Origin: an uncultured Clostridia bacterium | GTDB taxonomy: Bacteria > Bacillota_A > Clostridia > TANB77 > CAG-508 | Direction of reading: 5' to 3' | DNA: 5,590 nucleotides | NCBI GenBank assembly: GCA_947594095.1 | Contig: CANQEA010000088.1 | Coordinates: forward strand, 1 to 5,590 | Shown here: positions 1,038 through 5,588 of the stretch, piece after piece | How the letters are laid out: every line of letters starts with the position of its first letter | How positions within the stretch are numbered: position 1 is the first letter of the stretch | Made by a program: the position numbers and the translations under genes | The notes under the pieces: model-generated | Databases searched by the model: none | What the model was told of the DNA's origin: nothing | The model's input: only the letters and a program-made list of their open reading frames with translations

Positions 1038-1898
1038 TTACGAATTAGTACTTGTATTAATTAGACTTTCTAATCCAGGTAATAATAATGTAACTAATTC
1101 GCTATTTGCTGTAACAACCCATTTTCCGTCTACTTTTTTTACTTCAATTGTTTTTGAAACAGTAGTTGTAGGTATATCTTCTTTTCTTAATTCTTCTAAT
1201 AAATAATTATTATATTCTTCTTCTGTTGGTTCTGTTCCACTAAATGCGATTTTTACAACTTTTTGCATATAATTACTAAGTACAGTTTCAAAGTTTTTAT
1301 TTGTAATTTCTACTTCAACAGTTGCTGTATCTTGTTCTTCTTTTACTTCTCCAATTTTCCATGATATTTTATTAAATAATAATCTTTGAGCTTCTTCATT
1401 CATTGTTTTACTCTCATCGTCTAAATCTACTGAATTAATTAAATCATTATAATTTGTATATGTTTCAATACTGTTAAAATCTCCTGTTTTTAGACAATTA
1501 AGCATTGCTTCAACTGTTTCTTTTGCAGATTTTTGTCTAAATGCAAGTAAAGCTATAATTGCAACTAAAACAACAATTAAAATTATAGCTAAAACCCATA
1601 AACCATTATTTTTTGAATCTTTTGCATTAGTTTCTTTAGAAGTGGTAGTATTTTTAAATTTTGGTTCTTCTTTTTTAGCTTCTGCTACAGGTTTTTCTAC
1701 TTTTTTCTCCTCTTTTTTAGTTTCCTCAACTGGTTTTTCTGCTTTCTTATCTTCTTTATCTGCTTTTACATCTTTCTTTGCCTTTGCGTCTTCTTTATTT
1801 TCAGTTTTTTTCTTTGGTTCTTCCTTTTTCTCCTCAGGTTTATTTACTTCTACCTTAACCTCTTCCTTTACTTCTTCGTTTTCCTTTTTTTCGTCCAT
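1038..1898 (-). CDS. Single-pass membrane protein with Lys/Glu-rich N-terminal tail and NTF2-like-looking extracytoplasmic domain
   Basis: This 286-residue protein has three parts. Residues 1-95 are almost entirely Lys, Glu, Ala, Pro and Asp, presumably disordered, and contain a 13-residue block (EKPV.E.KKEE.K) twice, at 54-66 and 68-80. A single strong transmembrane helix spans about 99-120 and is followed by RQK. Residues 124-286 form a globular domain starting AKETVEAMLNCLKTGDF, with a later VEVEITN strand and VDGKWVV near the end. That pattern resembles NTF2-like/DUF4878- or DUF5105-type domains common in clostridial envelope proteins. I cannot name a specific family or function. The charged tail is probably cytoplasmic and the C-terminal domain outside. 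The start is supported by AGGAG at 1907-1911, eight bases before ATG. The gene has its own promoter and leader, and converges on the SPFH gene. A forward open frame at 1642-1980 is only its shadow. Confidence 0.85.
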   Translation of the reverse strand: MDEKKENEEVKEEVKVEVNKPEEKKEEPKKKTENKEDAKAKKDVKADKEDKKAEKPVEETKKEEKKVEKPVAEAKKEEPKFKNTTTSKETNAKDSKNNGLWVLAIILIVVLVAIIALLAFRQKSAKETVEAMLNCLKTGDFNSIETYTNYNDLINSVDLDDESKTMNEEAQRLLFNKISWKIGEVKEEQDTATVEVEITNKNFETVLSNYMQKVVKIAFSGTEPTEEEYNNYLLEELRKEDIPTTTVSKTIEVKKVDGKWVVTANSELVTLLLPGLESLINTSTNS

Positions 1899-2047: not shown

Positions 2048-3152
2048 TTATTTTTTTATATATTTTAAATAACTTTCCATAAATCCGTCTAAATCTCCAT
2101 CCATAACAGCTTGAACATTTCCCACTTCGTAATTTGTTCTATGGTCTTTTACCATAGTATATGGACAAAATACGTAGGATCTAATTTGACTTCCCCATGC
2201 AATATCCATTTGTACACCTTTTAAATCTTCAATTTTGTCTTTATGTTCTTTTTCTTTTAAATCATATAATTTAGATTTAAGCATTCTCATAGCTGTTTCT
2301 CTATTTTGTATTTGTGAACGTTCTGATTGACAGCTTACAACAATATTTGTTGGAATATGTGTTATTCTAACAGCTGATGAAGTTTTATTTATATGTTGCC
2401 CCCCTGCACCAGATGCGCGATATGTGTCAACTCGCAAATCATCTGGATTTATATCAATTTCAATATCATCTGTAATTTCTGGCAAAACTTCAACAGATGC
2501 AAATGATGTGTGCCTTCTTCCCCCACTATCAAAAGGAGAAATTCTAACTAATCGATGAACTCCCATTTCAGATTTCATATATCCATAAGCGTTTTCTCCT
2601 ATAATTTCAAATGTAACGCTTTTTAATCCTGCTTCTTCGCCTTCTAAATAATCTAGCTCTTTTACCTCATATTCGTTTCTTACACCCCATCTTGTGTACA
2701 TTCTGTATAACATCTCTGCCCAATCTTGAGATTCAGTTCCACCTGCACCTGGATGTATTGTTACAATTGCATTATTTGAATCATATTTTCCTGATAAAAA
2801 AGTTTTAATTTCAAATTTTTCAATATCTTTTTGTAAAATACTTGTATTTTTTAAAATTTCTTTTACAATTTCTTCGTCTGGTTCTATTTGTACTAATTCT
2901 GTTAGTTCTTCTAAATTTATTAATTCACTTTTAATTCTTTGGAATTCAGTTGTCTTTGATTTTATTGATTTAATTTGAGAGAGAATTTTAGTAGAATTAT
3001 TACTATCATTCCAAAATCCTTCTTTTGATGTTTGCTCTTCTAAAGATTTTAAATCTTTTTCTAATTTAACAATGTCAAAGAGAATCCCCAAGTAAATTTA
3101 ATTTTTCTTTTAATGTATCTAATAATCTTGTATTTTCTTCTAATTCAATCAT
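2048..3152 (-). CDS. prfB: Peptide chain release factor 2, expressed through a programmed +1 frameshift
   Basis: Release factor 2 recognises UGA and UAA stop codons in the ribosome and triggers release of the finished protein. The gene starts at ATG 3152-3150, with GGAG at 3164-3161. It reads 25 codons to an in-frame TGA at 3077-3075, and must skip base 3077 to continue from GAC at 3076 down to the TAA at 2050-2048. The result is a 367-residue protein, close to the 365 of E. coli RF2. In the full-length numbering the stop-recognition tripeptide SPF is at 205-207 and the catalytic GGQ is at 250-252, as in E. coli. Residue 246 is Ala, as in most bacteria. The N-terminal helical domain, the GVHRL.R.SPFDS.GRRHTSF block and the C-terminal WGSQIRSYV block are all present. 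A naive reading that starts at TTG 3091 would give a false 347-residue product lacking the regulatory first exon. Confidence 0.97.
3075..3089 (-). promoter_or_regulatory. prfB programmed +1 frameshift signal (GGGG ... CTT TGA C)
   Basis: Reading the minus strand, GGGG (3089-3086) acts as an internal Shine-Dalgarno-like element. After five bases come the slippery codon CTT (3080-3078), the stop TGA (3077-3075) and C (3074). When RF2 is scarce, the ribosome pauses at UGA and slips forward one base from CUU to UUU, making more RF2. This is the established autoregulatory mechanism of bacterial prfB. The distance from the last G of the purine element to CTT is five bases, against three in the E. 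coli signal. Confidence 0.95.
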
Positions 3153-3185
3153 ACTTATCACTCCATAACATAAATTGATATTTTA

Positions 3186-3380: not shown

Positions 3381-3424
3381 AGGAGAAGATGTAAAAAATT
3401 GCTTTTACATCAAATATTTTAATG
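3381..3424 (+). promoter_or_regulatory. Split ribosome binding site: Shine-Dalgarno, hairpin, then start codon
   Basis: AGGAG at 3381-3385 is the only good ribosome binding site ahead of the VanW gene, but it lies 36 bases from the ATG at 3422. Between them is a perfect 9-bp inverted repeat (3388-3396 with 3403-3411, six-base loop). Folding it would leave 12 bases between AGGAG and ATG, near a workable spacing. No better start was found: the frame upstream of the ATG hits TAA at 3392-3394, and the ATG at 3389 is followed directly by TAA. Folding-dependent translation is my inference. Phage T4 genes with Shine-Dalgarno elements brought close by a stem-loop are the known precedent. Confidence 0.55.
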
Positions 3425-4055
3425 AACAAAAAAGTATGGATTATAATTGGTATTTTGTTAATTGTTATAATTGGGGTTATTTATGCTGTAAATACAACTA
3501 ATAACTCTAATGTTCAAAATTATGATGCAAACAGAACATCTGCATCTGAAAACAATACAAATGAAAATAATCAAGAAGAAAAAAAATACACTGAACAAGA
3601 AATTGCAACATATTCAACAAAAATATATGATAAAGATGAAGCAAGACAAAATAATGTTTCAATCACTTGTAATACATTAAATGGAACAATTGTTAAAGCA
3701 GGAGATACTTTTTCTTTTTGTAATACTGTTGGGCAAGCTACTTCTAACAAAGGTTATAAAGAGGCCAAAATCTTTGATAAGAATGGAAATATAAAAAAAG
3801 GTCTACGGTGGCGGCAATTGTCAAATAAGTTCAACTTTGTATAATGCGGTTTTGGCTGTTCCTGACTTAGTTGTAACGGAAAGACATGAACACAGTAATT
3901 ATGTTCCATATATTCAAAAAGGAATGGATGCAGCAGTTGCTTATGGAAGTTATGATTTTAAATTTAGAAATAACTCTCCTTCTGATATTAAAATTATTGC
4001 AGAAACAACAGAAGATAATATTACAACAAAATTAGTTTCAATTAAATACGAGTAA
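3422..4055 (+). pseudogene. VanW-domain membrane-anchored protein, broken by one frameshift
   Basis: Two overlapping frames together encode one short VanW-family protein. The first (3422-3844) gives an N-terminal anchor (residues about 4-23), an Asn/Glu-rich linker, and the VanW opening with AGDTFSFCNTVG and NKGYKEAKIF. It then runs into nonsense after GNIKK. The second frame carries the rest: YGGGNCQISSTLYNAVL, ERHEHSNYVPY, GMDAAVAYGSYDFKF and a final beta-rich end at 4055. The join lies at about 3793-3804. Removing one base there, either one A of the A7 run at 3793-3799 or one base of GGTC at 3800-3803, restores a continuous protein of 210 residues. Everything else looks intact, so the lesion is recent, a phase-variable state, or a sequencing error. 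VanW proteins accompany some vancomycin-resistance clusters, but most are chromosomal envelope proteins of unknown function. No van genes are nearby. A terminator follows the stop. Confidence 0.85.
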
Positions 4056-4122: not shown

Positions 4123-4151
4123 TTGCAAATTATGTAAAATTGTATTATAAT
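4123..4151 (+). promoter_or_regulatory. Promoter of the variable tandem gene pair
   Basis: TTGCAA at 4123-4128, a 17-bp spacer and a perfect TATAAT at 4146-4151. Transcription should begin near 4158, just upstream of the leader hairpin at 4164-4204. It lies between the VanW terminator and the first variable gene, so the pair is an independent transcription unit. Confidence 0.72.
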
Positions 4152-4240: not shown

Positions 4241-4876
4241 ATGGCAAAATTAATTTCATTTGAGGAGGCTCTTCGGGGTACAATCAAGGAAGGGGATGAA
4301 GTCATAATAAATGCACTTTATCCCGATGAAAGTGAAGTTGTTAAACTCTATCCTAACGAAACAGGATATGAAGAAGAACAACTTTTTAGTAGAGAAGAAG
4401 ATCTAAAATTCTTCTATGCTAAAAACAAGGAGGGTATCCCCACCTTTTGGGGAAATGCTACTAAGAAACAAATAAACCTTTATGGAAGAACAGGTGCGAC
4501 ATTCGGAATTACATCTGTTAACAAAGCATGTAAGCCTTGGACGAATCTTGAAATGGGACTTTACTCCAAGGCTACTACGGAAGATGATTACAATCATCTT
4601 CGTAATACCTTGAAACTTTATTACGATTTAATCCGTAAAGGTTCATGGCTTGGGTCGCAGTATGTCTACACAATTGAGGGCCATATCTACTTCGGTTTGC
4701 ACAGTGTGGAAAGCTCTGGCAACGTGAGCGGGTACGAGTTGTTCAGTTCTCTTAGCGGTGCTTTCTACGACGACCATTACATTCGCCCTGCAGTTTCTGT
4801 ATATCTACCATCTAAAATCATGGTTGATATGGAAAAAAGTAAGGACGGAGCGTGGGTGTTAGTTCCCAATAACTAA
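4241..4876 (+). CDS. Variable protein A, C-type-lectin/FGE-like C-terminal domain (tandem copy 1)
   Basis: A 211-residue protein with no signal peptide or membrane segment. Residues 1-134 form a conserved region shared with copy 2, including FEEALRGTIK.GDEVIINALYP, LFSREEDLKFFYA, GIPTFWG, GATFG, and NKACKPWTNLEMGLYSKA. Residues 135-189 are the hypervariable block, in which a scaffold of W136, G138-S139, F151-H154 (FGLH), G160, V162, L167-F168, Y180 and R182-V185 (RPAV) carries mostly unconserved residues rich in S, Y, D, E and H. Residues 190-211 are a nearly invariant tail ending PNN. The W..S...FG.R.V...G.V....L..S....VRP pattern recalls large paralogous families of gut Firmicutes (DUF6273-like, formylglycine-generating-enzyme/C-type-lectin fold). 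This is from memory of such proteins and not a search. Function is unknown; ligand binding through variable surface residues is an inference. The start is fixed by AAGGAGG at 4227-4233, seven bases upstream. Confidence 0.85.
   Translation: MAKLISFEEALRGTIKEGDEVIINALYPDESEVVKLYPNETGYEEEQLFSREEDLKFFYAKNKEGIPTFWGNATKKQINLYGRTGATFGITSVNKACKPWTNLEMGLYSKATTEDDYNHLRNTLKLYYDLIRKGSWLGSQYVYTIEGHIYFGLHSVESSGNVSGYELFSSLSGAFYDDHYIRPAVSVYLPSKIMVDMEKSKDGAWVLVPNN
4643..4807 (+). other. Hypervariable region of copy 1 (codons 135-189)
   Basis: Aligned codon by codon without gaps to 5304-5468, 32 of 55 codons change the amino acid, only three differ silently and 20 are identical. By hand count about 42 of 54 base differences fall at codon positions 1 and 2. 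GC is 80 of 165 bases (48%), against 39% in the 69-bp tail that follows. The variable codons mostly end in C or T (AGC, TAC, GAC, CAT), as expected if derived from AAC/AAT-type template codons. The 5' border is gradual, since divergence already rises from about codon 121. The 3' border is sharp at 4807/4808. Confidence 0.75.
4803..4828 (+). repeat. Imperfect inverted repeat at the variable/constant border, copy 1
   Basis: Positions 4803-4811 pair with 4820-4828 at 8 of 9 positions around an eight-base loop. The mismatch (4806 with 4825) coincides with a base that differs from copy 2. The left arm straddles the end of the variable block and the right arm lies in the constant tail. See the perfect version at 5464-5489. 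Confidence 0.4.
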
Positions 4877-4901
4877 TAAATAAGTGTGAGGAGGAATAAA
4901 A

Positions 4902-5537
4902 ATGGAAAAAAAATTAATTCCATTTGAGGAGGCCCTTCGGGGTACAATCAAGAAAGGGGATGAAGTCATAATAAATGCACTTTATCCTGCTGAAAATGAA
5001 ACCGTAAGCCTATATCCTAACGAAACAGGATATAAAGATGTACAACTTTTTAGTAGAGAAGAAGATTTAAAATTTTTCTATGCTCAAAAAGACGGTATCC
5101 CTACCTTTTGGGGAGATGCCACTAAGACAAAATTAAACCTTGTTGGAAAAACAGGTGCAACATTTGGGGTCACGGCTATTAATAAGGCATGTAAGCCTTG
5201 GACAAATCTTGAAATGGGGCTTTATTCAAAGGCTGCTACGGCTGATGATTACAACTATCTTCGAGATAACTTAAAAGCGTGTCACGACTTACTATTCAAA
5301 CCTGCATGGGTCGGGTCGCTGTGTGTCCGCACAGTTGGTAGCTATTTTCTCTTCGGTTTGCACTATGTTAACAACTACGGCTACGTGTACGGTATTTCCT
5401 TGTTCAACTCTCTCGACGTTGAAAGCAACGGCAGCAGTTACGTTCGCCCTGCAGTTTTTGTACATCAACCATCTAAAATCATGGTTGATATGGAAAAAAG
5501 TAAGGACGGAGTGTGGGTATTAGTCCCCAATAACTAA
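4902..5537 (+). CDS. Variable protein B, C-type-lectin/FGE-like C-terminal domain (tandem copy 2)
   Basis: A 211-residue paralog of the preceding gene, starting 26 bases after its stop, with its own AGGAGG at 4889-4894, seven bases before ATG. The N-terminal 134 residues are about 75% identical to copy 1. The block 135-189 keeps the same scaffold (W136, GS, FGLH, G.V.G, LF.SL, RPAV) but is otherwise rewritten, rich in Asn, Tyr, Ser and Gly (for example VNNYGYVYG). The 22-residue tail differs only by Val for Ala at residue 205. There is no signal peptide or membrane segment, so secretion, if it occurs, needs another route. Co-expression of two scaffolds with different variable faces suggests a small repertoire of binding proteins. 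The biochemical role is unknown. A forward open frame inside it (5323-5523) is a shadow. A terminator follows 19 bases after the stop. Confidence 0.85.
   Translation: MEKKLIPFEEALRGTIKKGDEVIINALYPAENETVSLYPNETGYKDVQLFSREEDLKFFYAQKDGIPTFWGDATKTKLNLVGKTGATFGVTAINKACKPWTNLEMGLYSKAATADDYNYLRDNLKACHDLLFKPAWVGSLCVRTVGSYFLFGLHYVNNYGYVYGISLFNSLDVESNGSSYVRPAVFVHQPSKIMVDMEKSKDGVWVLVPNN
5304..5468 (+). other. Hypervariable region of copy 2 (codons 135-189)
   Basis: This is the counterpart of 4643-4807, the same length with no gaps. GC is 80 of 165 bases (48%), identical to copy 1 despite the many differences. Conserved islands such as TTCGGT.TGCAC (FGLH) and CGCCCTGCAGTT (RPAV) alternate with changed codons. 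Several changed codons are AAC, TAC, AGC, GAC or GGC, a set reachable from AAC by changing only the A positions. The 3' border with the constant tail is at 5468/5469. Confidence 0.75.
5464..5489 (+). repeat. Perfect inverted repeat at the variable/constant border, copy 2
   Basis: ATCAACCAT (5464-5472) and ATGGTTGAT (5481-5489) form a perfect 9-bp inverted repeat around an eight-base loop. It starts at the last variable codons and extends into the constant tail. In well-studied DGRs a hairpin or cruciform just downstream of the variable region assists retrohoming. Whether this one plays such a role is unknown, and the arms also encode protein. Confidence 0.5.
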
Positions 5538-5556: not shown

Positions 5557-5588
5557 CAACCTAGCATTGTATATTAAATGCTAGGTTG
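5557..5588 (+). terminator. Terminator hairpin of the variable operon, at the window edge
   Basis: A perfect 12-bp stem (5557-5568 with 5577-5588) closes an eight-base loop, 19 bases after the stop of copy 2. Two T residues follow before the window ends, so the expected T run cannot be checked fully. Position and stem strength make a terminator the best reading. Confidence 0.75.

Follow-up and report, generated by a model that had tools for sequence, protein, structure and literature searches.

Why do two adjacent genes of an uncultured Clostridia bacterium, alike over most of their length, differ so heavily in one short stretch near their 3' ends, and could a diversity-generating retroelement (DGR) encoded elsewhere have written that stretch? 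The window analysed here is an entire contig of 5,590 bases, which ends 53 bases past the second gene. Gene 1 (4241..4876, plus strand) encodes a stem-less lectin-like protein of a DGR-target family (P0002, 211 amino acids), and gene 2 (4902..5537, plus strand) encodes its tandem paralogue (P0001, also 211 amino acids). The part of the variable block that aligns with the template repeats (TRs) of relatives spans 4649..4789 in gene 1 and 5310..5450 in gene 2, both on the plus strand. At ~140 bp, and ending 29 codons before the stop, the block has the length (roughly 100-200 bp) and the 3'-proximal place in the gene that are expected of a DGR variable region (VR). Each block contains a constant island, TTCGGTTTGCAC (4691..4702 and 5352..5363, plus strand), and closes on a constant end read from the sequence, CGCCCTGCAGTT (4784..4795 and 5445..5456, plus strand), which in block 1 was marked as a possible homing anchor.

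The two proteins are identical at 98 of 124 residues (79%) in the front and at 26 of 64 (41%) in the gap-free block, and their tails are nearly invariant. An earlier note on this DNA had described a tandem pair with a hypervariable C-terminal block, and recomputing gene 1 against gene 2 on a codon alignment confirmed this description. Among the 124 codons compared within codons 1-126, 76 were identical, 22 silent and 26 replaced, with 17, 11 and 27 differences at codon positions 1, 2 and 3. Codons 137-190 gave 54 comparisons without a gap, of which 20 were identical, 3 silent and 31 replaced (20, 21 and 12 differences at the three positions), and codons 191-212 gave 22 comparisons (19 identical, 2 silent, 1 replaced). 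The replacement excess of codons 127-190 over codons 1-126 is strong (Fisher P = 2.7e-7), and the claimed concentration of block differences at codon positions 1 and 2 also held (P = 0.0045). The block had further been called sharply bounded. A three-segment split does gain more likelihood than any of 200 shuffles, which were searched on every second split point, and falls best after codons 122 and 190, but the front edge is softer than claimed, with 7 of the 10 codons 127-136 replaced. The block is free of gaps, stops and frame loss in either gene. A third protein, P0003, from a 7,939-bp contig, is identical to P0002 at 109 of 125 residues before the block, 29 of 64 within it and 28 of 29 after it.

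A strong replacement excess in the block could also arise without any retroelement, by ordinary divergence in which selection diversifies a ligand-binding face, and the adenine share of the differences is compatible with that explanation. Of the 53 block sites that differ, 34 have adenine in one of the two copies. The earlier description of a mild enrichment (about 34 of 54) is right for this overall count, but hides the split between 32 of 41 sites at codon positions 1 and 2 and 2 of 12 at position 3. Base composition predicts a share of 0.49 for block positions 1 and 2; since the flank (codons 1-126) has adenine in one copy at 22 of 28 differences at these positions as well (0.65 predicted on part of the flank), the adenine share alone is not diagnostic. 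Third-position differences in the block mostly involve no A (10 of 12), so one single template cannot explain both copies. The third bases of the replaced codons nevertheless argue against selection as the sole author. Within codons 137-182, 24 of 28 and 26 of 28 replaced codons end in C or T, compared with 65 and 64 of 125 in codons 1-126, the pattern expected if the AAC and AAT codons of a template had their adenines randomised. The same bias reaches 36 of 38 at columns where templates carry Asn, against 36 of 54 elsewhere in the block. Block GC is also raised (0.50, versus 0.37-0.38 in the front, in a contig of 30% GC), and the homologues described below are DGR targets. Selection on a binding face without a retroelement is consequently a very improbable account of the pair.

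If a DGR wrote these blocks, the window does not carry its other parts in any form that our searches recognise. No reverse transcriptase (RT) of the relatives' kind was found on the contig by tblastn, nor was a second copy of the variable block; an Rfam scan of the window at gathering scores gave no match, and the template-RNA element of relatives described below scored at chance level (best 13 and 10 bits, E 0.93 and 0.12). Because the pair is followed by a 12-bp perfect inverted repeat (5557..5588, no strand assigned, terminator-like on the minus strand in our scan) and then by the contig end, an RT, Avd and template would have to act from elsewhere. A promoter-like site upstream of gene 1 (TTGCAA, 17 nt, TATAAT; 4123..4151, plus strand; 10/12 in a consensus scan) is weak, as the region holds 8 such sites where 4.6 are expected.

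The contig carries further genes. An SPFH protein (64-981, Pfam Band_7 match) has 86 to 91% identity to its counterparts in the best 80 of 236 loci, which are nearly all labelled as uncultured Clostridia, Clostridium or Eubacteriales; gut samples are the source of several. Its neighbour (1038-1898, minus strand) encodes a lysine-rich protein in which one hydrophobic segment is visible by eye; its best identity among 390 sampled genomes is 47%, which sets the organism apart from those genomes. The gene at 2048-3091 (minus strand), probably prfB, has no single-piece frame started by ATG; the split at 3085-3165 (minus strand) looks like the known programmed frameshift of release factor 2. A VanW-domain gene (3422-4055) lies in two frames (3422-3844, 3837-4055), with a Pfam match for the first part, and is thus either broken by a frameshift in the contig or affected by a sequencing error.

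Standard protein collections said little about the pair. Pfam gave at best E 0.12 for the window proteins, under the cut-off, and 0 matches for P0003; PHROGs gave 0 matches for both window proteins, and NCBIfam at best E 0.16. Protein searches yielded three family members and then six, and a profile of these six sequences found matches in 14 of the 50 SPFH-relative genomes tried, out of a set with 30 loci more, and in 110 of 390 genomes belonging to one family. With the threshold at E 1e-9, 9 of 385 genomes matched, in a sample of the order that overlaps the 390. The matches are of two kinds: short stem-less proteins, often tandem or dispersed, and longer ones whose N terminus is prepilin-like. 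Several of the short homologues (e.g. L198, L200, L202) lack parts of the block scaffold. A 26-row profile found 19 proteins, 13 of them stem-type. Twelve stem-type proteins have a mean identity of 96% over alignment columns 40-370, which falls to 50% within the block and is 87% beyond it. The DGR targets whose N terminus is prepilin-like (L136, L144, P0010-P0021) may constitute a surface-displayed class in Clostridia; a match to GspG was weak. In two relatives, short stem-less homologues in L265 (758-2061, two in tandem) and L266 (1414-2025) adjoin the upstream side of a mutL-like gene.

Structure prediction with AlphaFold reached a pLDDT of 40 with 6 sequences, a model that was set aside, and 90 after more homologues were added, a rise that counts in favour of the DGR-target reading. 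When the predicted model was compared with known folds, C-type lectins ranked behind the top match, and a viral fold library gave no match at E 0.001. Further relatives were not found in several collections: exact peptide patterns of the target found none in genome_contigs and viral_contigs, tblastn of the target found none in phages and plasmids, and the stem-type relative P0013 had no match in viral_contigs. Unlike the stem-type relatives, the window proteins have no hydrophobic N terminus by eye, and so should be cytosolic or released.

Related Clostridia do carry DGRs. Of the genomes asked, 12 of 14 and 11 of 12 contain RVT_1 matches, bearing in mind that not every RVT_1 protein is a DGR RT, and in relatives RT and TR adjoin several target genes. 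The one locus tested for Avd, L144, has a match (E 2.2e-15, 56.9 bits, below the curated cut-off of 80). We compared 13 TR/VR pairs, six from unfiltered repeats (among the matches listed) and seven from repeats filtered for adenine bias. Mismatches fall at template adenines in 17/18, 25/27, 25/26, 26/27, 30/33 and 25/25 cases for the six unfiltered pairs and in 23/26, 21/22, 12/13, 11/11, 18/18 and 12/14 for six of the seven filtered ones; L222 gave 34/52 in an ungapped and 31/39 in a gapped alignment. The scaffold of the window block is present in six of the 13 pairs (L136, L137, L138, L144, L220 and L222). These DGRs share with the window the block scaffold and the kind of domain, and their templates are of AAC and AAT codons, but, unlike the window pair on its contig, their targets adjoin RT and TR and carry a prepilin-like N terminus.

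The closest analogue of the pair is in genome G187, where two stem-less tandem genes, homologous to those of the window, do not differ in the first 125 codons of their frames. Over 241 codons they show 39 base differences, of which codons 1-160 contain 4, codons 161-219 contain 33 and codons 220-241 contain 2. Used as a DNA query, one of these blocks matched 15 places in G187 and 14 in G224. Such multiplicity would suit conversion from silent variant cassettes, the option that the earlier note had set beside a DGR, but the extra copies inspected look like coding targets or template RNA copies: sorted by eye, some places are coding VRs and others are Asn-rich copies with shared flanks, which we read as templates. 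Differences also lean to template adenines. A VR at L238 has 14 mismatches to the template at L234, 12 of them at template A, and the tandem copies have 31 and 21 mismatches to the template at L240, with 25 and 13 at template A, a good but imperfect fit, as several slightly different templates are expected. Cassette conversion gained no positive support from this comparison, and we judge it extremely unlikely.

The base pattern of the window pair resembles that of the G187 VRs. Across 45 VR-VR pairs of G187, A is present at 69% of differences at positions 1 and 2, and position 3 contributes 17% of all differences; the same measures for the window pair are 78% and 23%. Templates related to the G187 pair sit in the same genome, on other contigs than the pair. 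Short homologues from eight relatives were compared with RT loci of the same genomes; among pairs whose adenine or thymine share exceeded 0.65, no adenine-specific partner was found for them. For L213, from G187, a later whole-genome DNA search found related templates.

A more direct link comes from the columns that vary. The window blocks were aligned with 11 TR translations, namely six RT-adjacent ones, that of L142 (read from an open frame, without a TR/VR mismatch count) and four of 12 dispersed ones; the seven TR/VR pairs without the window scaffold were left out. Columns at which the majority of templates encode Asn are variable in the window pair in 15 of 17 cases, versus 12 of 30 other columns. 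For all 11 templates, Asn columns are enriched among window-variable columns (P 0.0004 to 0.026), in tests that are not independent because the templates are related. With L222, 17 of 19 Asn columns are window-variable versus 10 of 27 others, and none of 46 other registers reaches 17. Of the columns that are hypervariable among 12 natural variants of a stem-type relative, 18 of 19 also vary in the window pair, versus 9 of 30. This agreement fits DGR writing, past or present, and would also arise on any exposed, otherwise free face. The suggestion that the pair are DGR targets, perhaps remote ones, is thus supported through its relatives: homologues are DGR targets with mostly adenine-specific differences, the G187 pair shows the same arrangement, and the Asn columns agree.

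Whether such writing is current is a separate matter. The blocks might be relics, written by a DGR in the past and now drifting with no matching template active, and this would account for the third-position differences that lack A (10 of 12) and for the short homologues of eight relatives without a partner in RT loci. A template pattern predicted from the sites constant between the window blocks likewise gave 0 matches in viral_contigs, and its 18-base end 0 matches in 300 loci, as expected of relics. Yet the intact frames of both window blocks speak against decay, and the third-position share is similar in the VR-VR pairs of G187 (0.17, versus 0.23 in the window). We consider relic targets unlikely.

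We have good confidence that the window pair are instead stem-less DGR-type targets rewritten in trans and served from elsewhere, a kind of target that is already known. Each gene would combine a stable front and tail with a VR of ~140 bp, whose free codons would derive from AAC and AAT codons of a template. An RT with Avd, both encoded elsewhere in the organism, would copy a template RNA and misread its adenines, and the cDNA would replace the VR of either gene in trans, leaving the two copies and P0003 different mainly in the block. The constant CGCCCTGCAGTT end would serve as the anchor, and third-base differences would come from drift or from rewriting by templates that differ slightly. 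The proteins themselves would be free C-type-lectin-like binding modules with a randomised face and without the pilin-like stem of their relatives.

Remote DGR targets have precedents. They are described in Treponema (PMC4891356) and in cyanobacteria (PMC7517822), and for two loci of Thiohalocapsa PB-PSB1 action in trans is given as the best explanation (PMC10907252). The cyanobacterial and PB-PSB1 cases resemble the window in having lectin-type variable proteins away from the RT, but those targets are matched to a template within the same genome, whereas the window contig shows none, and the window proteins, unlike those targets, are single stem-less modules in tandem. In one survey, 271 of 948 DGRs have several VRs, and 216 of those 271 have one TR (PMC6642488). 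Another reports lectin folds for annotated VR regions, and states that its own approach would not detect remote targets (PMC8144416). The Bordetella phage BPP-1 DGR shares with the system proposed here a C-terminal VR, adenine-directed changes and a constant 3' end, but has all parts in one cassette, with a target hairpin, GC-rich and of 8 bp, after the VR (PMC3240598). The window has a 9-bp AT-rich hairpin after gene 2 only, a perfect inverted repeat with an 8-nt loop just after block 2 (5464..5489, plus strand), of doubtful meaning since the counterpart after block 1 is only 5 bp. In a size control, 8 of 179 window slices reached 9 bp, and only 4 of 13 VRs of relatives had 7-8 bp. The downstream hairpin is weak, and we did not use it as evidence.

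How a template might be supplied from a distance is suggested by the relatives. Dispersed template-RNA copies were observed at L234, L240 and L242 in G187 and at L231, L233, L237, L239, L241, L247, L249, L251 and L253 in G224. Eleven copies from these two genomes align over ~400 bases, comprising a template core, a conserved 3' region and a terminator, and 8 of the 11 have a TATAAT box at the same columns (by eye). The 3' region folds with 58 pairs, 18 of which show compensatory change. Of 26 sources tried, 9 match a model of this region, scoring 105 to 163 bits and each with an RT in the locus; the RT loci L226 and L227 (of G224 and G187) give no credible match. No RT was found by tblastn in 12 loci of 2 to 3.1 kb that carry template RNA, and Rfam gave no match at E 0.1 for five template-RNA loci. 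In L139 (2925-3126) and L145 (2100-2301), the conserved 3' region of the template RNA runs across the end of a target-like open frame with a block that is not rich in Asn; one stretch may thus serve there as both template and target.

In selected relatives, template-RNA copies are several per genome, and many lie far from any RT. Six genomes chosen for good matches were searched by scoring the best 40 candidates per genome and counting places that include the 3' region, which gave at least 11 copies in G224, 9 in G236, 8 in G323, 5 in G143, 3 in G187 and 3 in G355, leaving out two G236 copies at contig starts and one 43-base match in G143; RT matches in the same genomes numbered 1, 0, 1, 1, 2 and 1. 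No template-RNA copy shares a contig with an RT in G224 or G187, all 11 copies of G224 lying on other contigs than its single RT match; in each of G143, G323 and G355 at least one copy does share a contig with an RT. Over 340 genomes, with the best two places per genome scored, the template-RNA model found any match in 131, many of the weak ones covering the terminator only, and at least 25 below E 1e-15 among the matches listed. When templates were compared with one another, A was present at 28 of 30 differences at positions 1 and 2 in G187 (3 pairs) and at 154 of 188 in G224 (10 pairs of five ungapped copies). Templates thus differ mostly at adenine sites, as if they had themselves been rewritten.

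The window pair may belong to a distributed DGR of this type, a tentative proposal in which one RT with Avd would serve dispersed stem-less lectin-like targets from many scattered template-RNA genes. Each free-standing template-RNA gene would have its own conserved 3' structure and terminator, away from the RT. Open-licence literature searched by title and passage gave no description of many free-standing template RNA genes with one RT, and the distributed template-RNA system, seen in relatives only, would be the new element.

Surveys that require an RT beside the target miss genes like the window pair. Where a target has no evident surface anchor, one may ask what is being randomised within the cell or released from it. 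In the relatives, the template RNA genes stand apart from the enzyme, which opens the supply and choice of templates, and their possible self-mutation, to separate study.
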